From assembly GCA_022071965.1 (NCBI GenBank), contig JAJVIQ010000003.1:248001-312000 (forward strand): a stretch of 64,000 nt of DNA. Direction: 5' to 3'. A program made the translations under genes and the position numbers. Shown here one piece after another: positions 13,505-23,596 of this stretch. Position 1 is the first letter of the stretch; each line of letters begins with the position of its first letter. The stretch is from Gammaproteobacteria bacterium. GTDB lineage: Bacteria > Pseudomonadota > Gammaproteobacteria > JAJPIJ01. The notes beneath the pieces are model-generated. The model worked only from the letters and a program-made list of their open reading frames with translations, searched no databases and was not told the origin of the DNA.

Positions 13505-16500
13505 ATGACCACTTCGACGGGTGCTCACCGCGGCCTGCTTGGCTGGGTACACGGGGAGATCGACCGAGGACTGAACGTGGTCGCCGGGCAGTTGGCGGAA
13601 TCGCCGGATCCCGCGAAGGTCGCGCCGCTCGCCGAGGAACTGCACCGCATCACCGGCGCGCTCGGCATGGCCGAGTTGCATGGCGCGGTGCGTTATTGCG
13701 AATTGCTGGAGACGCTGGCGGCGTCATTGAAGAGTGATCAGCTCGCCGCGGCGAAGAGGCAGGAGGCGGCCGACGCCCTGCGCGAGGGTATTCCCGCGCT
13801 CGGCGCGTACCTGAGGGAACTCGTTGCGGGAGGCCCGGACCGGCCCTTGCGGCTGCTGCCCGCCTACACCGCGCTGCGACGTGCGCTGGGTGAGGACAAG
13901 GACGCGGCCGCCGATCTGTTCCACCCCGACATACGCACGCCGCGGCCGGCGCACAGCCTGCCGCCGGCGCCGCACGCGCCCCTGGATCCCGCGGAGGTCA
14001 CGCGCGCGGCGCGCGGCCACTACCAGCGCGCCATGCTGCAGTGGCTGCGCGGTGATGCACGCGGCCTTCAGCAGATGAAGATCGCCATGGAATCGATGGA
14101 TCGGCTCTACGGTACGGTCACGCCGTTATTCTGGGCCGGCACGGGACTCATCGAAGGCATCGGCGACGGCGGGATCACCGCCGACGCGCAGATCCGGCGG
14201 CTGTGCGCGCGCATCGACATACAGATCTCGCGCATGGCGGAAGGGTCCACCAGCGTCGCCGAGGCGCTGCTGCGCGAGGTGCTCTATCACATCGCCTGCT
14301 GCACCAGCGAAGGCCTCACCGTCGCCGCGGTGCGCGAACACTATGCGCTGGCGAGTTATCTGCGCGAATCGCAGGCCGGCGGCGTATCCCCGCTCGCCAC
14401 GGCGATCATCGAGCAGATCAAGGCCGCCTGGGAAACCGGCGTGGCCACCGGCAGCCCGGATTGCGCGGCGATCGCCGAGCTCGTGGATCGTCTCTCCGCC
14501 GCACTGGCCGCCGGTGCCGGGCCGGCCCTGCAGGCATTGCGCGAAGTGACGACGACATTGACGGCGATGCCCTCCGCCACGCTTCCGGAAGCCGTCGGTC
14601 TCACCGTCGCCAAGCTGCTACTTATCGTCGAGGAACTCGCCGGCCCCGCCGGGGCGCAGCACGCCGGTCTCGACGCGCGCCTGCGGTGGGCGATCGCCAA
14701 CGTCAGGGCGACGCTCGCAGGCGGCGTCGCCAGCGAGTATGCGGCCCAGCCGGAGGTGCCCGACACCACACTCAGCCGCGAAACGCTGGTGCTGGTCTGC
14801 GAGGAGGTGATCGGCGGACTCAAGCGCGTAGAGCACGCGTTGACGAACTTCATCGGCCAGACCTCCCAGGTCACGGAGGCGCAATCGGCGATCGCGACAC
14901 TTGGGCAGATCTGCGGGGCCCTGCAGGTCGCGCAGCTCGAGGATGCGGCCAACGTCACTCGGCGATGCCGCGAGCTCGTCAGTGCATGGATAGAGGGCGC
15001 GGGCGAGAAGATCGGCGGTCATCTGGAGATCGTTGCCGACGCGCTGGCGGCGATGGAACTGTACATGCACGCCGTGAAGGGCCGACAATCCAGCGCGGGC
15101 GGGATCCTGGACCCCATCCTCCCGCGTCTGGGCCTCGACCGTGCGCATCCGTCGCAGGTGGAGACGCCGCTCGCTCCCGCCGCGCCGACGGTCGAAAGCG
15201 GACTTTCGCACGAGCACCGCCAGAGGCAGGACATCTGCAACGAGTGGCGCGAATTCCACGAGGGTGAGCTCGACAAGCTGCAGCGCGAGCCGCCGAGCGT
15301 GCACGAGGACGCCCGCCTGGTCTCCGATCCCCGGATCGAGCAGCACTCCGCCGCCGCGCTGGCCGTCGCCAGCAGGTCAGACGCCGAACCGATCACCGCT
15401 CCCGCGGGGACCATCATCGCCATCGGGCAGGACGGTGAACCCACGGCCGCCGACGCGATGCGGATCGACGCCGGCAACGACCCGGAGATCCTCGAGGTGT
15501 TCCTCGAGGAGGCGACCGAGGTTCTGCAGGCCATCGCCGCCACGCTGGGTGTTCTGCGCGGGAATCCGGAGGATCGCGAGGCGTTTGCCTCGGTGCGCCG
15601 CGCCTTCCACACCCTGAAGGGCAGCAGCCGCGTCGCCGGGCTGAGCCGCGTCGGTGACGTCGCCTGGAAGTTCGAAGAACTGCTGAACGGCTGGCAGGGC
15701 GAAAACCGGCCCGTCAGCGCGGCCCTGGTCGCGTTGCTCGCCGCGGGTGGTCGGCGATTCGAGGACTGGATCGACGCACTTAAGACCGCCGGCCGCGCGA
15801 CGGTGGTGGCCGAGGACCTGCTGAGCGGGGTCGAAAGGATGCGCACCGGCGAGGCCACCCCGAAATGCGGCACGGCACCGCGCGCGACGGCGCCCGTCAG
15901 CACCGCGCAGGGCGCAGACGCGACGACCCCGCCGGAGCCGCAGCCACCGGCGGCGACTCCAGATCGGCAATCGCAGCCTCGACACCAACCGGTGCGCGAG
16001 ACCGTCACGCTCGGTGACGCATTGACCGTCTCCAGGACGCTGTTCGAGATCTTCCTGCAGGAGGCCGCCGTGCATCTGCGCACCCTGCGCGAGGAGCTGG
16101 CGGAGCACGGAGCAGAGAAGGCCGTCCCACACGAACTCGTGCGCGCCGCGCACACGCTGGCGGGCACCGCCCGCACTGTCGGCGTCGGCTCGCTCGCGGA
16201 ACTCAGCCACGCACTCGAGAAGCTGCTGCAGATGCGCCACGAGTCGGCGCTGCCCATGAGCGTCCCGGAGAGGCGCCTCGCCGGGTCGACGCTGGGCAGG
16301 CTGGAGACCATGGTCGAATCAGTGCGCGGACGGCGACTCCCGGCGCCGGAGACCGAACTCATGCAACAGCTCGAGGCCGCGCGTGAGCAGCCGCCTTCGG
16401 CCGTGGATTTCCCACCGCTGCCCGACGCAGCGACCGCACCGCCATCTATCGACGAGGCAACCGCGATTCCGACTGTCGACGCCGCCGATCCGCAGCCTGA

Positions 16501-18868
16501 GGCGCCCGCGGGCACCGCGGAACAGGGCGGGGCCCCGGCTGCGCCGGAGGAACCGGCGGCACAGCCTGCCGTCGCGGGCACGACCGCGAGCGCGGGTTCG
16601 GCATCGACCGGCAGGGGCGTGATAGCGCCCGTGGACATGGCCGCCATCGACACCGATCTGCGCGGCACATTTGCCGATGAAGGACTCGAGCTCGCCACCG
16701 CCCTCGCCCGCGGCATGCAGGCCTGGCGCAACGCGCCTGAGAATGCGGCACACGCCGAGGAGATCGCGCGCCACCTGCATACGCTGAAAGGCAGCGCCCG
16801 CAGCGCCGGCGCCATGTCTATCGGCGAGATGGTGCACGGCACGGAGTCGCGTGTGCTCGACGCGATGCACGCGAAAGAGGCCTCACCCGGCCTCCTCGAC
16901 GGCCTGCAGGCCATCTTCGACCAGTGGTGCGAGGCCTTCGAGAACGCCCGCCACGTGACGCACTCGTCGCTCACCGCCGCGGTCGCCAACTCCGTGTCGA
17001 TCGCCGCGCACGCCGAGGAGCTGAAGGCCGACGTCGCGCGGTCCGGCTCCGCCGCCCAGCTGCGCGTGCAGGTCGACACGCTGGAGCGACTGCTCGACGG
17101 CTCGGCGGAGATCGCGCTCACACGGACGCGCATCAGCGCCGGACTCTCCTCGGCGCGCCGCGCGGCCGCCGACATGGAGGAGCGCGTGACGCACCTGCGT
17201 GCGCAGCTGCGCGAGATCGAGATCCAGGCCGAGAGCCAGATGCGCGCGCGCTTCGACGGCCTCGATCAGTCCGATGCCGCATTCGACCCCCTGGAGTTCG
17301 ATCGCTACACGCGCCTGCAGGAGCTCACCCGGTTCATGGCCGAGTCGCTGCACGACCTGACCACGGTGCAGTACAACCTCAGCCGCCATTTCGACGAGGC
17401 CGAGGGCGTGCTCGGTCAGCAGGCCCGCTTGCAGCGCAATCTGCACTCCGATCTGATGCGCATCCGCACCGTGCCGTTCGCAAGCGCGGCAGAGCGCCTG
17501 CAACGCATCGCACGCCAGACGGCCTCAGAACTCGGGCGCAGCGTCCGCCTGAACATGAGCGGCGGTCACGTCGAAGTCGATCGCACGGTGCTCGACCGGC
17601 TGATCCCGCCGCTCGAGCACATGGTACGCAACGCGGTCGCCCACGGTATCGAGGATGCCGCGGAGCGTCGGCGGGGCGGCAAGCCGGAAACCGGCAACAT
17701 CACGATCGCGGTGCACCAGGAGGCCAACAACGTCATGATCGTCTGCAGCGACGACGGCGCCGGCCTCGATCTGCGCCGCATTCGCGCCAAGGCCGAGGCC
17801 GGCGCCGTCATCGCCGCCGGCGAGCCGGCAAGCGACCAAACGCTGCGCCAGCTCATCTTCCGCCCGGGCTTCAGCACCTCCGAGCAACTGACCGAGGTCG
17901 CCGGCCGCGGCGTGGGCATGGACGTGGTGAAGAGCACCGTACTCGCCCTTGGCGGCGACATTCGCCTCGACTCCCAGCCCGGCATCGGCACCACCTTCAC
18001 GCTCAGCGTTCCACTGACTCTCGCGGTGGTGCAGGCAATCATGATCCGCAACGCCGACCGGCTCTACGGCATTCCTTCGAATCTCGTCGCGCAGATCCAC
18101 CGCTGCGACGCCGCCGAACTCGAGGGCATGTACGAGCACCGGCGCGCCGACTGGGGCGGCGAGCGCCACGCCTTCCGCTACATGGGCGATCTGCTGGGCA
18201 CCGCGCCGCGCGGCACCGTGCAACGGCGCAACAACATCGTGATCTTCCTGCGCGCGGCCAGCGAGCGGGTGGCCGTGCACGTCGACGACATCCTGCTGAA
18301 CCAGGAACTCGCCCTGAAGGAGATGGGTCCGCAGCTCGCCGGCGCTCTCGGCGTCTCAGGCGCATCCATCGGCGAGAACGGCCGCGCGCTGCTCATCATC
18401 AATCCGCTGCAGATTGCCATGCGGCACTCCACGACCAGCGTCAGGGCACAGATCGCCGACGGCAGGCCGGCGCGCGCGCCGCTGGTGCTGGTGGTGGACG
18501 ACTCGGTGACGGTGCGCAAGGTCACCACCCGTCTGCTCGAGCGCTCCGGCTACCGCGTGACGACCGCGAAGGATGGCGTCGAGGCGCTGGAGCGCATGAG
18601 CGAGGAGCTGCCGGCCGTGGTGCTGCTGGACATCGAGATGCCGCGCATGGACGGCTTCGAGCTGACCAGGCATTTGCGCGCCGACGGGCGGACCGAGAAG
18701 CTGCCGATCATCATGATCAGCTCGCGCACGGCGGAGAAGCACCGCATGCACGCGCGAGATCTCGGAGTGACGATGTTCCTTGGCAAGCCCTTCAACGACG
18801 CCCACCTGCTGCGCCAGATGGAACGTCTGACGCGAAACGGCCACCCGTCCGCGCGCAGCGTCGCCTAG
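13505..18868 (+). CDS. pilL: Multi-Hpt hybrid histidine kinase of the pilus chemosensory system (PilL/ChpA)
   Basis: This 1787-residue CheA-type kinase phosphorylates PilG and PilH. Seen in order: an N-terminal degenerate Hpt-like region (LHRITGALGM, H47); a long FimL-like helical region; Hpt domains with H702 in FHTLKGSSRVAGL, H883 in AHTLAGTARTVG and H1092 in LHTLKGSARSAG; Pro/Ala-rich linkers between them; then the dimerisation helix, HATPase (HMVRNAVAHGIED, DDGAGLD, GRGVGMDVV), CheW-like domain and a C-terminal receiver with D1709 in LLDIEMPRMDGF. The three canonical Hpt copies are fewer than in the longer P. aeruginosa ChpA. It follows pilJ by 12 bases. Confidence 0.95.
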   Translation: MTTSTGAHRGLLGWVHGEIDRGLNVVAGQLAESPDPAKVAPLAEELHRITGALGMAELHGAVRYCELLETLAASLKSDQLAAAKRQEAADALREGIPALGAYLRELVAGGPDRPLRLLPAYTALRRALGEDKDAAADLFHPDIRTPRPAHSLPPAPHAPLDPAEVTRAARGHYQRAMLQWLRGDARGLQQMKIAMESMDRLYGTVTPLFWAGTGLIEGIGDGGITADAQIRRLCARIDIQISRMAEGSTSVAEALLREVLYHIACCTSEGLTVAAVREHYALASYLRESQAGGVSPLATAIIEQIKAAWETGVATGSPDCAAIAELVDRLSAALAAGAGPALQALREVTTTLTAMPSATLPEAVGLTVAKLLLIVEELAGPAGAQHAGLDARLRWAIANVRATLAGGVASEYAAQPEVPDTTLSRETLVLVCEEVIGGLKRVEHALTNFIGQTSQVTEAQSAIATLGQICGALQVAQLEDAANVTRRCRELVSAWIEGAGEKIGGHLEIVADALAAMELYMHAVKGRQSSAGGILDPILPRLGLDRAHPSQVETPLAPAAPTVESGLSHEHRQRQDICNEWREFHEGELDKLQREPPSVHEDARLVSDPRIEQHSAAALAVASRSDAEPITAPAGTIIAIGQDGEPTAADAMRIDAGNDPEILEVFLEEATEVLQAIAATLGVLRGNPEDREAFASVRRAFHTLKGSSRVAGLSRVGDVAWKFEELLNGWQGENRPVSAALVALLAAGGRRFEDWIDALKTAGRATVVAEDLLSGVERMRTGEATPKCGTAPRATAPVSTAQGADATTPPEPQPPAATPDRQSQPRHQPVRETVTLGDALTVSRTLFEIFLQEAAVHLRTLREELAEHGAEKAVPHELVRAAHTLAGTARTVGVGSLAELSHALEKLLQMRHESALPMSVPERRLAGSTLGRLETMVESVRGRRLPAPETELMQQLEAAREQPPSAVDFPPLPDAATAPPSIDEATAIPTVDAADPQPEAPAGTAEQGGAPAAPEEPAAQPAVAGTTASAGSASTGRGVIAPVDMAAIDTDLRGTFADEGLELATALARGMQAWRNAPENAAHAEEIARHLHTLKGSARSAGAMSIGEMVHGTESRVLDAMHAKEASPGLLDGLQAIFDQWCEAFENARHVTHSSLTAAVANSVSIAAHAEELKADVARSGSAAQLRVQVDTLERLLDGSAEIALTRTRISAGLSSARRAAADMEERVTHLRAQLREIEIQAESQMRARFDGLDQSDAAFDPLEFDRYTRLQELTRFMAESLHDLTTVQYNLSRHFDEAEGVLGQQARLQRNLHSDLMRIRTVPFASAAERLQRIARQTASELGRSVRLNMSGGHVEVDRTVLDRLIPPLEHMVRNAVAHGIEDAAERRRGGKPETGNITIAVHQEANNVMIVCSDDGAGLDLRRIRAKAEAGAVIAAGEPASDQTLRQLIFRPGFSTSEQLTEVAGRGVGMDVVKSTVLALGGDIRLDSQPGIGTTFTLSVPLTLAVVQAIMIRNADRLYGIPSNLVAQIHRCDAAELEGMYEHRRADWGGERHAFRYMGDLLGTAPRGTVQRRNNIVIFLRAASERVAVHVDDILLNQELALKEMGPQLAGALGVSGASIGENGRALLIINPLQIAMRHSTTSVRAQIADGRPARAPLVLVVDDSVTVRKVTTRLLERSGYRVTTAKDGVEALERMSEELPAVVLLDIEMPRMDGFELTRHLRADGRTEKLPIIMISSRTAEKHRMHARDLGVTMFLGKPFNDAHLLRQMERLTRNGHPSARSVA

Positions 18869-18952: not shown

Positions 18953-19426
18953 TCATTGCGGATGGTCCGTGTGATCGCCCGCCGCGGCGCCACTGCCGCG
19001 CACTTCCACGTCGGTCTGCACCTTGCCCGCGACCTTGAAAGTCAGCGTCAGCGGATAACGCTCGCCGGCCGCCAGGGGATTCCTGAGATCGATCAGCATC
19101 AGGTGCATCGACCCCGGCTTGAGCACGACGGTCTCGCCCGCCGGCACCTCCAGGTTCTCGAGCTTGCGCATGCGCATCATGCCGTCATCCATCGTCATGG
19201 TGTGGGTCTCGATCGAGGCTGCAACGGGGCTTTCCATGGCGATGACGACGTCGTCGGTGCCGGTGCCGTTGCGGATCGTCATGTAACCGGCGCCCACGGA
19301 GGCGCCGGGCGGCGTCTCCGGCGACCAGGCCCCGGAGACTCCGATGCCCGAGGGGGCGGACGGACCGCCACAGCCGCCGAGCAGGACCAGTATCGCCACC
19401 GGGATCGTCTTCAACCACGTCTGCAT
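18953..19426 (-). CDS. PCu(A)C-family copper chaperone lipoprotein
   Basis: PCuAC proteins bind Cu(I) in the periplasm and help load the CuA/CuB sites of cytochrome oxidases. The 157-residue product has a lipobox ending LLGGC. It also has the family copper motif: ETHTMTMDDGMMRM (about residues 75-88), then HLM in GSMHLMLIDL, giving the H/M-x10-M-x21-H-x-M pattern. A His/Asp-rich tail follows. The ATG at 19426 has GGAGG 5 bases upstream. The SafE-like membrane protein gene follows it on the chromosome in the same strand, upstream in transcription. Confidence 0.88.
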   Translation of the reverse strand: MQTWLKTIPVAILVLLGGCGGPSAPSGIGVSGAWSPETPPGASVGAGYMTIRNGTGTDDVVIAMESPVAASIETHTMTMDDGMMRMRKLENLEVPAGETVVLKPGSMHLMLIDLRNPLAAGERYPLTLTFKVAGKVQTDVEVRGSGAAAGDHTDHPQ

Positions 19427-19583
19427 GAGGAGCCTCCGTCGAGGACGATGCCGCGTCAGCCGCGCCGTCGTGCCGGCTCGCGCGTGTGTCGCGCCGGGCG
19501 GGCCGCAGCAGTCTATCGGAAACGGGCCCGGCGCCGGGATGCGGCAGAATGCCGCACGTGCGATCCCGCACCGCCGCACCGGA

Positions 19584-20279
19584 CTAGGCGAGGCAGTACT
19601 GCACGATGACATGCTGCAGGTTTACGCCGATGCTTATCGTGCCCACGGCGACGAGCAGCAATCCCGCGCCGCGGCGCAGGACCGCCTTGCGGGTGAAGCC
19701 GCCTGCGGCGCCGACCAGCATGCCGGCCGAGGCGATCGCCGGCACCGTGCCCAACCCGAAGAGCAGCATGTAGAGCGCCCCGCGCAGCGGATCGGCACTC
19801 GCCGCCGCCCACACCAGGGTCGAGTAGACCAGCCCGCAGGGCAGCCAGCCCCATAGCGTGCCGAGCAGCAGGGCTCGCGGTGCAGACCGCACCGGCAACA
19901 GCGTGTGGGTAAATGGCTGCAGCCAGCGCCACGGGCGGGCACCCAGCGCCTCGATGCGACGCAGGCCTGGAAACCAGCCGGCAAGATGCAGACCGACCAG
20001 CACCAGGACGGCCCCCGCGACGACGGCGAGCAGTTCGTGCCCCGCCGCCGGGATGACCGCCGGCAGGGCCGAGAACACCGTCGCCGCGAGCGCTCCGGCG
20101 AGCGTGTAGCTCATGATCCGGCCGAGATTGTAGGCGAGGACGCGCGCGAGCAGCCGCGCAGGGCTGGCGCGATCGGATTCCGGCAGCCCCAAGGTCAATG
20201 CGCTGGCGATGCCGCCGCACATGCCGATGCAATGCACGGAGCTGAAGAGACCGAGGACGGCGGCTATCAGTATCGACAC
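19584..20279 (-). CDS. SafE/UreH-like multi-pass membrane protein (cytochrome oxidase biogenesis type)
   Basis: The 231-residue protein has about six membrane segments and the family motifs SSVHCIGMCGG near the N-terminus and LWGWLPCGLVYS in the middle. Proteins of this type (annotated sulfite exporter TauE/SafE or UreH-like, a DsbD-related fold) are usual neighbours of cco/cyd oxidase assembly genes and are thought to move copper or reductant. The paired Cys residues in both motifs are intact. Next to PCuAC, a copper or oxidase-assembly role is the likeliest, but the substrate is unproven. Confidence 0.8.
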   Translation of the reverse strand: MSILIAAVLGLFSSVHCIGMCGGIASALTLGLPESDRASPARLLARVLAYNLGRIMSYTLAGALAATVFSALPAVIPAAGHELLAVVAGAVLVLVGLHLAGWFPGLRRIEALGARPWRWLQPFTHTLLPVRSAPRALLLGTLWGWLPCGLVYSTLVWAAASADPLRGALYMLLFGLGTVPAIASAGMLVGAAGGFTRKAVLRRGAGLLLVAVGTISIGVNLQHVIVQYCLA

Positions 20280-20381
20280 GATTGAGCGGTGCTATCCCCG
20301 GCCATCGGGGTCGCGGCAAGACCGGTGTGCCACGCTGGTGGCGCACCCTGGCAGAAATACCGGTTGCGCGGCGCCGCCGAC

Positions 20382-20395
20382 CTGTTCCAGATCAA
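20382..20395. promoter_or_regulatory. Possible FNR/Anr-type box
   Basis: CTGTTCCAGATCAA resembles the FNR/CRP-superfamily dyad TTGAT-N4-ATCAA with one perfect half and one three-of-five half. It lies between the divergent SafE-like and cytochrome c genes, about 100 bases upstream of the former. Oxygen control would suit these genes, but the match is imperfect. Confidence 0.3.
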
Positions 20396-20576
20396 GTTTT
20401 CCGGTCACCTTTTCCTCGGATACTGTGTCTTGCCTGGCTGACCCCATGCCGGCAGCACCGCATGCGACAAGATGCCGCATCGCGTGGCCACTGCGGATCC
20501 TTTCCTATTCAGCATCCGTTAGGCCATCAGGTAGCAGCCTTTCGACTGGTCACATTACCATACGGAGAGTGCCACG

Positions 20577-20903
20577 ATGTCAATTCGACGTACTGCCATC
20601 GCGTTGATCGCCGCCCCCCTGTTCCTGACGAGCTTCGCGGCTGCCGCCGCCGACGACGGCGCGCAAATCGCTCAGGGGCTGTGCTTCGCCTGCCATCAAT
20701 CCGGCATAAACGGCGCGCCCAAGTTCGGTAACAAGGTCGCCTGGGCACCGCGAGTCGCCCAGGGCAAGGACAAGCTCTACGCGAACGCGATCAACGGACT
20801 GCGTGGCATGCCCCCGCGCGGCGGCGGCGCCAGCCTCACCGATGACCAGGTCAAGGCCGCGGTCGACTACCTGGTGAAGGGTTCGGGAGGCTATCCGCAG
20901 TAA
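20577..20903 (+). CDS. Small periplasmic class I cytochrome c (c5-like)
   Basis: The 108-residue precursor has a signal peptide (IALIAAPLFLTSFAAAAA) and one haem c motif CFACH at about residues 36-40. The probable axial Met is in GLRGMPPRGG near residue 81. The loop spacing resembles cytochrome c5, an electron carrier to terminal oxidases. The ATG at 20577 has GGAG 10 bases upstream. It lies opposite the copper/oxidase-assembly genes, consistent with a respiratory theme. Confidence 0.9.
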   Translation: MSIRRTAIALIAAPLFLTSFAAAAADDGAQIAQGLCFACHQSGINGAPKFGNKVAWAPRVAQGKDKLYANAINGLRGMPPRGGGASLTDDQVKAAVDYLVKGSGGYPQ

Positions 20904-21103
20904 GAGTCAACGGGCGTTCCACGGCTGCCTCAAGCCGACAGCGACAGGCCTCACGACCGGTGCCAGGGAAGGCGCCGGTGGAAATTCCTCCCGACACCAG
21001 TCTCCGCACGGCTTCGAGGCTGCGCGGGCCTCCACCCGCCCGCAACGATCCGCAACTCCTGTCCCCCGGCTGTCGGTCCCGCTGCATGGCGGCAGCGCCG
21101 CGA

Positions 21104-23167
21104 TCACCAGGTGAATCGCGCCTGGACGAACCCGTTGATGCCGTCGGCGGGGATGCGCTCGCCGATCGCCACGTCGCTGTTCAGAACGCGGTTGATGCCG
21201 TTCAGATGCGGGCGGTAGGTCTTGCCGAGCACGTTCTCCACGCCGGCGCTGAACGTCAGCCCCTGCTTCGGGAAGGTGTACTGGCCATAGAGATTGAGCA
21301 GCGCATAGCCGGGGCTCTCCTCCTCGCCGTTGGTGATCGAGACTTCCTCCTGCGCGGCGTAGATCACCCCCTCGACGACGGCCGACCACCGCTCGCGCCT
21401 GTAGCTCACATCCACCACGGCATTCAGTGGTGCGATGCGGAAGAGATTGTCGTCGATGTCCACGCGCTCGCCGCGCGCGTAGCTCAGGATGCCGTCGACG
21501 GCCCAGCGCTCGGTCAGGCTGACGCCAAAGGCCGCGTCGACGCCGTAGAGCCGCGCATCGACGTTGCTGAACTGCAGCGGCGTCGGGTCGCCATTGGCGG
21601 TGGCCACCACAATCACCACCGGATCGGTGGCGGGCGTGCCCTGGATGTAGTCCGTCACGTAGTGGTAGAAGGCGCGCGGTGAGAAGTAGTAGCGCGCCGT
21701 CGCCCACTCCACGCCCAGTTCGAGCTGATAGGCGACCTCGGGGTCGAGGCCCACCTCGCCGACGTAGAGATTGCCGTCCGCGAGGCCCGCGGTCGCCTCC
21801 ATCGGCGACCAGAGATAGCGCTCCTGGTAGCTCGGCGAGCGGGTCTTGCGCCCGAAGCCGACCTCCAGTGCCAGCTGCTCGGTCACGTCGTAGCCCAGCT
21901 TGGCGACGAGGTCGACGTTGTCGTCGGCCTGATCGCGGTCGGCCGCGTTGAAGCGATCGCGCAGGATCCGCAAGCCGCCGGGCGCGGCGGCCATGGAGGA
22001 GTCCACCACGCTGCTGTCCATCGCCACGCGGTTGTAGCGCGCGCCGAGCTGCGCCGACCAGCGCTGCGCGAACAGGGCGTTCCACTCGGCGAAGAATCCG
22101 TAGCGGTCGCGTTCGGCGTCGTTGAAGCCGTCCATGTAGAACATCGGCGCCAGCGGGCTGTAGACGGTCGAGGTGTTCTCCGCGAGATGACCGTCGACGC
22201 CCGCTGTCATCCTGCCCCCGAACAGCGCCGCCGCGCCGGTGAGCGCGTAGCCATAGCTCTCGGCATCCGCATCGGTGTAGCGCGAGCGGCCCGGCATCAC
22301 CTGCCGCATCTCGTAGTTGCTCATGCGGTGATCGATGCCGGTGCCGTAGAGCTTCGCCGTCCAGTCGATTCCGGCGCCACGGCCGGCGTAACCGAGGCGG
22401 CCAATGTTGGCGTCGGAGTAGATGTCGTCCATCGGCAGGGCCGGCGTGCCGGTCTTGCCGGTATCGTTGCGGCGATAGTCGGCGCTGAGCTCGTGCGCGC
22501 CGAGCTTTAGCCCGTAGCCGACCTCCGCCGCCGTGCGATTGTATTCGCTCGGGTGGATGGTGCCGTCGCCGAAGCTGCGGTCGCCGCCGCGCTCGCGGCT
22601 CGCGCCGGCGTACAGGCGATGTCGCTGGTTGGCCGCCGAGAGCAGGCCGCTCGCGGCATATCCTTCGTCCACCGACTGCCCGCCCAGGCTGATGTTTCCA
22701 TGCAGCTCCGCCTCGTCGGACTCTCCGAACGCCGGCGTGACGGTATCCGCCACGACCGTGCCGCCGATGGTCTCGATCCCGGAACTCACCGGCGCGATGC
22801 CTCGGAAGACTTCGATGTTTGCCAGCGTGGTGCGCGGCAGGTAGTGCAGCGGCGCGTCCATGTTGTTGGAGCAGGCGTTGCCGATCGCCATGCCGTCGAC
22901 CAGCACGTTCACGCGTGAGCCGAACAGACCGCGGTACTGCGCGATGCCGGCAAGGGTGCCGTTGAAGTTGACGTTGGCGCCCGGGATGCGGCGCAGGAGC
23001 GACGCGGTGTTGGTTTCGGAAAGCGGCGTCCATTCCGGCAGCAATTGAAACGGAGTGAGCGGCATGGCTGTCACCGTGATCGACGGCAGTTGCCCGGCGT
23101 TCTCCTGCGCCGAGGGTGCCGTGGCGATACAAAGGGTTGTCAGCGGCAGGACGTATCGTCTTCTCAT
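21104..23167 (-). CDS. TonB-dependent copper receptor of the OprC/NosA type
   Basis: This outer-membrane receptor has 687 residues from the ATG at 23167: a signal peptide, a plug domain (about residues 30-150) and a 22-strand barrel ending VQARFTW. The copper ligands described for P. aeruginosa OprC are visible. CxxxM is at C99 and M103 (NACSNNMD), and HxM is at H280 and M282 (DHRMSNYEM). OprC/NosA imports copper for nitrous-oxide reductase and other cuproenzymes. The neighbouring PCuAC and SafE-like genes support copper. An ATG at 23194 lacks a ribosome site. Confidence 0.87.
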   Translation of the reverse strand: MRRRYVLPLTTLCIATAPSAQENAGQLPSITVTAMPLTPFQLLPEWTPLSETNTASLLRRIPGANVNFNGTLAGIAQYRGLFGSRVNVLVDGMAIGNACSNNMDAPLHYLPRTTLANIEVFRGIAPVSSGIETIGGTVVADTVTPAFGESDEAELHGNISLGGQSVDEGYAASGLLSAANQRHRLYAGASRERGGDRSFGDGTIHPSEYNRTAAEVGYGLKLGAHELSADYRRNDTGKTGTPALPMDDIYSDANIGRLGYAGRGAGIDWTAKLYGTGIDHRMSNYEMRQVMPGRSRYTDADAESYGYALTGAAALFGGRMTAGVDGHLAENTSTVYSPLAPMFYMDGFNDAERDRYGFFAEWNALFAQRWSAQLGARYNRVAMDSSVVDSSMAAAPGGLRILRDRFNAADRDQADDNVDLVAKLGYDVTEQLALEVGFGRKTRSPSYQERYLWSPMEATAGLADGNLYVGEVGLDPEVAYQLELGVEWATARYYFSPRAFYHYVTDYIQGTPATDPVVIVVATANGDPTPLQFSNVDARLYGVDAAFGVSLTERWAVDGILSYARGERVDIDDNLFRIAPLNAVVDVSYRRERWSAVVEGVIYAAQEEVSITNGEEESPGYALLNLYGQYTFPKQGLTFSAGVENVLGKTYRPHLNGINRVLNSDVAIGERIPADGINGFVQARFTW

Positions 23168-23596
23168 GAAGCAGATGACCTCGTAAAGAAGCATTGGCGT
23201 GAAACAGAAACGTACCGCCCCGGCGGGGCGTTCCCGCGGGGCGGTTCGAATTGCAGCGGGATCATATTGGTCGAGGCTTGATCCGTGTCAGCAATCACCG
23301 CCTCGATCCGTGCGGCTATTTGTCGCAGGCGTGCGCCGTCGTTGAATGCCGATGTGCCCGAGGGCTGCGGTTGCACCGCGGCGCGTGCGGCAATCGGTCG
23401 CATTCACAGCCGCCGGACACGTGCGCTACATTTCCGCGCGGTTGCTTTCCAGAGTGACCGCACTCCTCGCCCCGAGCCGACGAGTGCGCAGCATTCGGGG
23501 CTGCGTGAACCAATTCCTCCGCAGCCCCATTCTTTCCCCTCCCGCGGCACCAACGCTTTGAGAGGCAAGCGGCGATCCTGCTAACATGCCGCCCCT
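23168..23596. other. Divergent intergenic region between copper receptor and gltX
   Basis: These 429 bases hold no convincing gene. There is a GC inverted repeat CCGCCCCG / CGGGGCGG at 23215-23244 in the receptor leader. A weak FNR-like dyad TTGATCCGTGTCAG lies at 23278-23291. I see no cobalamin-riboswitch B12 box, which argues against B12 control of the receptor. Confidence 0.4.

Follow-up and report, generated by a model that had tools for sequence, protein, structure and literature searches.

A 64,000-nucleotide stretch of DNA (hereafter the window) from a Gammaproteobacteria bacterium (GTDB lineage JAJPIJ01; GenBank assembly GCA_022071965.1, contig JAJVIQ010000003.1, positions 248,001 to 312,000) carries a group of genes with a putative role in copper supply. 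The original prediction placed an OprC-type receptor, a PCuAC chaperone, a membrane protein and a cytochrome c within 4.3 kb of the window, and all four genes do lie there. The source genome (3.56 Mb in 39 contigs) is 98.7% complete. The features of the locus, in window coordinates, are as follows:

18953-19426, minus strand: PCuAC copper chaperone (PF04314), 157 amino acids, probable lipoprotein, with the motif H-x10-M-x21-H-x-M
19584-20279, minus strand: DsbD_2 membrane protein (PF13386), 231 amino acids, with the motifs HCIGMC and LPCG
20577-20903, plus strand: small monohaem class I cytochrome c (CFACH; PF13442), syntenic, probably outside the copper function
20987-23379, no strand: 2.39-kb receptor-bearing segment, in place of which a genome of the same genus (G003) has 52 bp
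21104-23167, minus strand: TonB-dependent receptor of an OprC-like sister family, 687 amino acids, ligands C99, M103, H280 and M282
22322-22330, minus strand: HxM motif of the barrel (codons for H280-R-M282), placed by calculation from the start at 23167 and verified on the sequence
22859-22873, minus strand: CxxxM motif of the plug (codons for C99-S-N-N-M103), placed and verified in the same way

Because the cytochrome c gene lies between the receptor and DsbD_2 genes on the opposite strand, these genes do not form one operon, and a single transcript unit running from the receptor to PCuAC was dropped.

The receptor reads from an ATG at 23167. OprC was the best sequence match of its product in the PDB (E 3.3e-27), at about 23% identity, and no relative found exceeded 62% identity. 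An AlphaFold2 model built with 20 sequences of the window family had a mean predicted local distance difference test (pLDDT) score of 87 and a predicted template modelling (pTM) score of 0.86. When this model was submitted to Foldseek, the top 28 rows were all OprC chains (TM 0.79-0.83 by query), and VIA-align superposed it on OprC with Z scores of 39.2-40.2 and a root-mean-square deviation of 2.2-2.4 over 600-609 residues; the best entry other than OprC was ZnuD (Z 36.0). Alignment placed C99, M103, H280 and M282 at C143, M147, H323 and M325 of Pseudomonas aeruginosa OprC, the residues described as its copper ligands (PMC8610252). The receptor is a TonB-dependent transporter with the OprC fold and the four-ligand set, the CxxxM and HxM motifs of which the original prediction had noted, and it is likely that it imports copper.

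Relatives of the receptor were gathered in three ways. Among 274 genomes of the class, a relative was found at E 1e-60 in 26, the source genome included, giving 27 receptors. A scan of named genomes by peptide patterns contributed the best 80 of more than 543 relatives; one of these patterns combined NxMD with a ligand site limited to G or C and none covered H280 or M282, so that the invariance of M103 and the restriction to Gly or Cys are partly imposed on these 80 loci. A search with the NCBIfam model for OprC, TIGR01778 (TonB-copper), added 30 rows. Of the resulting 137 rows, 125 were non-redundant after 11 near-identical rows (at least 97%) and one fragment (L154) were left out; among them, the 27 class-search rows and 29 TIGR01778 rows were chosen without peptide patterns. 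M103, H280 and M282 are invariant in all 27 receptors of the class search, that of the window included, and the M-HxM set is kept in 125 of 125. In a FastTree phylogeny from which the motif columns were left out, the 29 TIGR01778 rows separated from the other 96 with full support, on a branch (100*) that excludes the window receptor; an IQ-TREE run likewise grouped five of the TIGR01778-search rows apart from it. The window receptor is therefore not OprC proper; it is a member of a sister clade. As to a methionine track to the site, the comparison was one of counts: the window receptor has 14 Met residues, and the median of the 29 TIGR01778-search rows is 16.

The PCuAC gene, which starts with ATG at 19426, encodes a protein that scored 132.8 bits against PF04314 (cut-off 29.4) and carries, as judged by eye, a lipobox-like LLGGC and a complete H-x10-M-x21-H-x-M motif, the copper motif by which PCuAC proteins are defined (PMC12617631, PMC9145763); the chaperone assignment of the original prediction is borne out. 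A PCuAC match was found in 19 of the 26 receptor-bearing class genomes and lay within 5 kb of the receptor in three of them (two of 25 without the source genome), where 0.09 would be expected; in one of the three the genes are 4.1 kb apart and on different strands. Closer arrangements also occur. In G174 the receptor, DsbD_2 and PCuAC genes follow one another on the same strand with 52 and 37 bases between them, and in G123, a genome listed with 6% contamination, PCuAC lies 18 bases before a receptor that scores above the OprC cut-off. A small open reading frame before PCuAC in G123, resembling a neighbour cluster seen at 6 of 81 loci, had no Pfam match. The source genome has a second PCuAC gene, with the full motif by eye, directly after a SCO1 gene (G000:C1:67132-68015; L002, L119, L168), so the PCuAC of the window is not its sole copy.

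The membrane protein, whose gene starts with GTG, had been labelled SafE/UreH-like. That it is a membrane protein stands; its Pfam family is instead DsbD_2 (PF13386, 180.5 bits, cut-off 24.9). A DsbD_2 match was present in 26 of 26 receptor-bearing class genomes and lay within 2.5 kb of the receptor in six of them (five of 25 without the source genome), against 0.12-0.21 expected, the lower value being that from genome sizes; none of 200,000 random draws reached five such adjacencies. When the window and the 80 named loci are taken together, DsbD_2 occurs within 5 kb of the receptor in 22 of 81, 17 times on the opposite strand; many of these loci come from related Methylophaga-type genomes and are thus not independent. 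Among the 22 proteins, that of the window included, HCxxMC is found in 21 and LPCG in 18, and in 13 the last 30 residues include at least six His or Met.

The original prediction also proposed that cco/ctaCDE or nosZ genes be looked for elsewhere in the genome. CtaD with CoxB (aa3), two CcoN (cbb3) and NosZ of the twin-arginine translocation (TAT) type were found, together with three SCO1 proteins, one of them near the second PCuAC. Since there are several candidate target enzymes, sequence alone singles out none as the recipient. Two further COX1-family genes (G000:C5:1061-8224; C2:281158-283470) have SCO1 nearby and CoxB-like neighbours below the CoxB cut-off; they scored 65 and 51 bits against the aa3 model, where 671 is required, and may be alternative haem-copper oxidases. 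The sixth COX1 match (C5:1061) had no NCBIfam match at 1e-10.

It is probable, although well short of certain, that the locus as a whole places a copper importer beside a periplasmic copper-handling pair and so supplies respiratory enzymes. The computed basis for this is the fold and ligands of the receptor, the PCuAC motif, the arrangement of the genes, the presence of target enzymes and the recurrence of the DsbD_2 link; the transport of copper, the direction of its flow, the partners and the target enzyme are what we infer. The receptor would carry out TonB-driven import of ionic copper across the outer membrane, with the metal held between C99 and M103 of the plug and H280 and M282 of the barrel, as in OprC. 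DsbD_2 and the lipoprotein PCuAC would act as a pair handling periplasmic copper, one kept in the genus also where the receptor is lacking. PCuAC would pick up the imported copper and, with Sco proteins encoded elsewhere, deliver it to the copper centres of aa3, cbb3 or NosZ, and DsbD_2 would most likely hold Sco or copper-site cysteines in the reduced state, or move copper directly. TonB receptors linked to the copper of oxidases in Caulobacter (TccA, PMC12617631) and Bordetella (CrtA, PMC12914433) provide a precedent. That the locus feeds a single enzyme through a line of its own is plausible, though unproven.

Several observations weigh against this supply of respiratory enzymes by the locus. 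The receptor scored 176.6 bits against TIGR01778 and did not reach the curated equivalog cut-off of 472.45. PCuAC had no match at E 0.001 in seven of the 26 receptor-bearing class genomes and lay beside the receptor at none of the 80 named loci, where flanks extended up to 8 kb and only 39 had more than 5 kb on both sides; the window is the only such case among the 81. The DsbD_2 of the window has a single His or Met in its last 30 residues, and so no His/Met-rich end. PcuB of Bradyrhizobium, a receptor from a comparable operon, is reported to have no detectable deletion phenotype (PMC12617631). No copper-regulator site was identified, although no motif search for one was made. Four genomes of the order were searched, the source genome included, and the other three (G001-G003) had no receptor at E 1e-20. 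In G003, which belongs to the same genus and is 95% complete, the same gene order is found with no receptor in it; the neighbourhood of PCuAC, DsbD_2 and cytochrome c therefore exists without the receptor.

These last points bear on the most serious alternative, one that we regard as unlikely but not lightly set aside: that the receptor, located downstream of the cytochrome c gene, is a stand-alone cassette, already gained or now being lost, which feeds copper to the periplasm in general, while PCuAC and DsbD_2 use copper entering through porins and the adjacency is incidental. Window positions 20987-23379 correspond to 52 bp in G003, which makes the receptor a variable cassette, while the surrounding genes are kept (ChpA 79%, PCuAC 85%, DsbD_2 89%, cytochrome c 94%, GltX 90% and CysS 95%). 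Two histories fit: the genus had the chaperone pair before it had the receptor, or G003 has lost the receptor. The base composition of the receptor gene (GC 0.672, GC at third codon positions 0.891, codon correlation 0.894) is close to that of its neighbours; it leaves gain or loss undecided, and a recent foreign origin by composition was dropped. The arrangement of strands in the window and the rarity of PCuAC near the receptor, in the class and named loci alike, also fit an incidental adjacency. Against it stand the DsbD_2 adjacencies, far above chance, and the closely spaced genes, PCuAC among them, on one strand in G174 and G123, and we retain import coupled to the periplasmic pair as the better explanation.

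A further alternative is that the receptor serves nitrous oxide reductase and not the oxidases. Service to nitrous oxide reductase has been proposed for NosA of Pseudomonas stutzeri, an orthologue of OprC (PMC8610252), and the genome does encode a NosZ that scores 970 bits (cut-off 625). The nosZ gene lies on another contig (C3), however, and a nosA knockout in another strain is described as having normal NosZ, with OprC occurring also in non-denitrifiers (PMC8610252); we consider this alternative improbable.

It is very improbable that the receptor imports haem, zinc, cobalamin or a metallophore: a haem receptor model was its next NCBIfam match (138.6 bits), and by fold OprC is followed by haem receptors and ZnuD, but OprC is best by both sequence and fold, three of its four special ligands are invariant in the family with all four present in the window protein, and neither a B12 riboswitch nor a Fur box was found. 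The latter searches covered Rfam, with no match to a B12 riboswitch or any other family at E up to 1, and Fur boxes, with none within three mismatches, and control by B12 or Fur was dropped. A promoter scan gave no minus-strand site and no terminator, and upstream inverted repeats offered nothing usable.

The cytochrome c is probably outside the copper function. Although it is retained in G003, no relative was found beside the receptor at any of 80 other loci when a single-sequence model of the window cytochrome c was used, and it was dropped as a functional member. The original prediction of a route from outside the cell to a respiratory enzyme holds in part: the receptor, PCuAC and the enzymes are present; it is weakened by the existence of the neighbourhood without the receptor, by the receptor-bearing genomes in which PCuAC had no match, and by the negative result for the cytochrome c at the other 80 loci. 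Other genes do recur near the receptors. ExbD-type genes lie within 5 kb at 14 of 81 loci and DUF3450 at 11 of 81 (one member checked), and at seven loci (L048, L063, L067, L072, L079, L087 and L109) the receptor gene is immediately followed by DUF3450, ExbB, ExbD and TonB-like genes, as though it came with an energising complex of its own. One of these loci, L087, is from Methylotuvimicrobium buryatense 5G; its receptor is of the Cys type and has a DsbD_2 gene nearby as well. At 12 of 81 loci a conserved protein of about 195 amino acids (cluster c6; L056:2422-3006 and 11 further loci) is encoded just after the receptor on the opposite strand; the one member tested had no Pfam match. The label DUF2946 for the neighbour cluster at 6 of 81 loci was withdrawn, the one member tested being without a Pfam match. 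The four-gene stretch itself is flanked by gltX on one side and on the other by a chemotaxis kinase gene, which we take to be of ChpA type. This open reading frame (13505-18868, plus strand, 1787 amino acids) is retained in G003, and its product is presumably a CheA-CheY hybrid kinase of the ChpA type that includes several parts resembling Hpt.

The position of the fourth ligand, C99 in the window, varies in a restricted way. In the 125 rows it is Cys in 51 and Gly in 74, with no other residue. The class-search receptors have 10 Cys and 17 Gly (n=27); the TIGR01778-search rows, of which 24 score above the cut-off and five at 409-431 bits, have Cys in 29 of 29; the sister family of 96 rows has 22 Cys and 74 Gly, L056 and L080 being examples with Gly. 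Seven changes between Cys and Gly are needed on the FastTree phylogeny, at least five of them on starred branches, and IQ-TREE on 59 rows again required seven, with at least five on starred branches. The window receptor groups with L010, L039 and L041, all of them Cys (100* in both trees). In one case L071, which has Cys (TGC), is nested within Gly rows (GGT and GGC in three inspected), and the switch can be made by a single-base codon change. The C143A mutant of OprC is described as losing Cu(II) and keeping Ag(I), an outcome that its authors read as pointing to Cu(I) binding (PMC8610252); by analogy, receptors with Gly may be naturally restricted to Cu(I). It is thus possible, and we put it forward tentatively, that these receptors form a widespread and apparently undescribed sister family of OprC with a ligand switch, Cys binding both Cu(I) and Cu(II) and Gly only Cu(I), and with several moves between the two; the clade of the window receptor would then have kept or regained Cys. 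Where the window receptor has N331, His is found in 71 of 74 Gly rows versus 9 of 22 Cys rows, and this His may be a replacement ligand in the Gly receptors. It is also present in 10 of 29 TIGR01778-search rows, and the contrast is not unique, since Val at 345 shows a slightly larger one. An independent-pairs test of His331 against Gly (four pairs on starred branches, median p 1) gave no support beyond shared descent, and a His-for-Cys swap was dropped as a proven feature.

Deliberate import of copper in Gram-negative bacteria is poorly known, and the choice between Cu(I) and Cu(II) is open. The closest known systems are OprC of P. aeruginosa and NosA of P. stutzeri (TIGR01778), with which the window receptor shares the fold and the placement of four ligands on plug and barrel; unlike them, it falls below the family cut-off and in a sister clade (100*), and that family mostly has Gly for Cys. 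In gene content the locus resembles the TccA-PccA-Sco1 system of Caulobacter vibrioides, in which the gene for TccA, a TonB receptor needed for aa3 oxidase, lies near that for a PCuAC chaperone; TccA is described with a predicted His-rich site and is set apart by description only (PMC12617631). It also resembles, again by description and not by sequence, the copper-starvation-induced pcuABCDE operon of Bradyrhizobium japonicum, which pairs the TonB receptor PcuB with the PCuAC protein PcuC (PMC12617631) and also has a YcnI-like PcuD (PMC8424229). CrtA (BfrG) of Bordetella pertussis is a TonB copper importer for haem-copper oxidases; in its family a few operons include PCuAC genes, the receptor gene usually has a PepSY_TM gene after it, and no Cys or Met is conserved (PMC12914433), unlike the receptors here, all 125 of which keep M103 and M282. 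The membrane protein is like other DsbD_2/CcdA-type proteins (PF13386) in its Pfam match and its HCxxMC and LPCG motifs. The pairing of a TonB receptor with PCuAC is thus already known in other forms (PMC12617631, PMC12914433). Less expected are the recurring DsbD_2 link, a new element here, and the Cys/Gly switch: among the matches listed from the open-licence literature, neither was met, nor was a copper role for DsbD_2 or SafE proteins, nor OprC receptors with GxxxM or lacking the Cys. The DsbD_2 partner offers a new lead on the fate of copper in the periplasm, or of the thiols that receive it, and the variation of the Cys ligand while the other three are constant in this sample provides matched natural pairs with which selection of the redox state can be tested.

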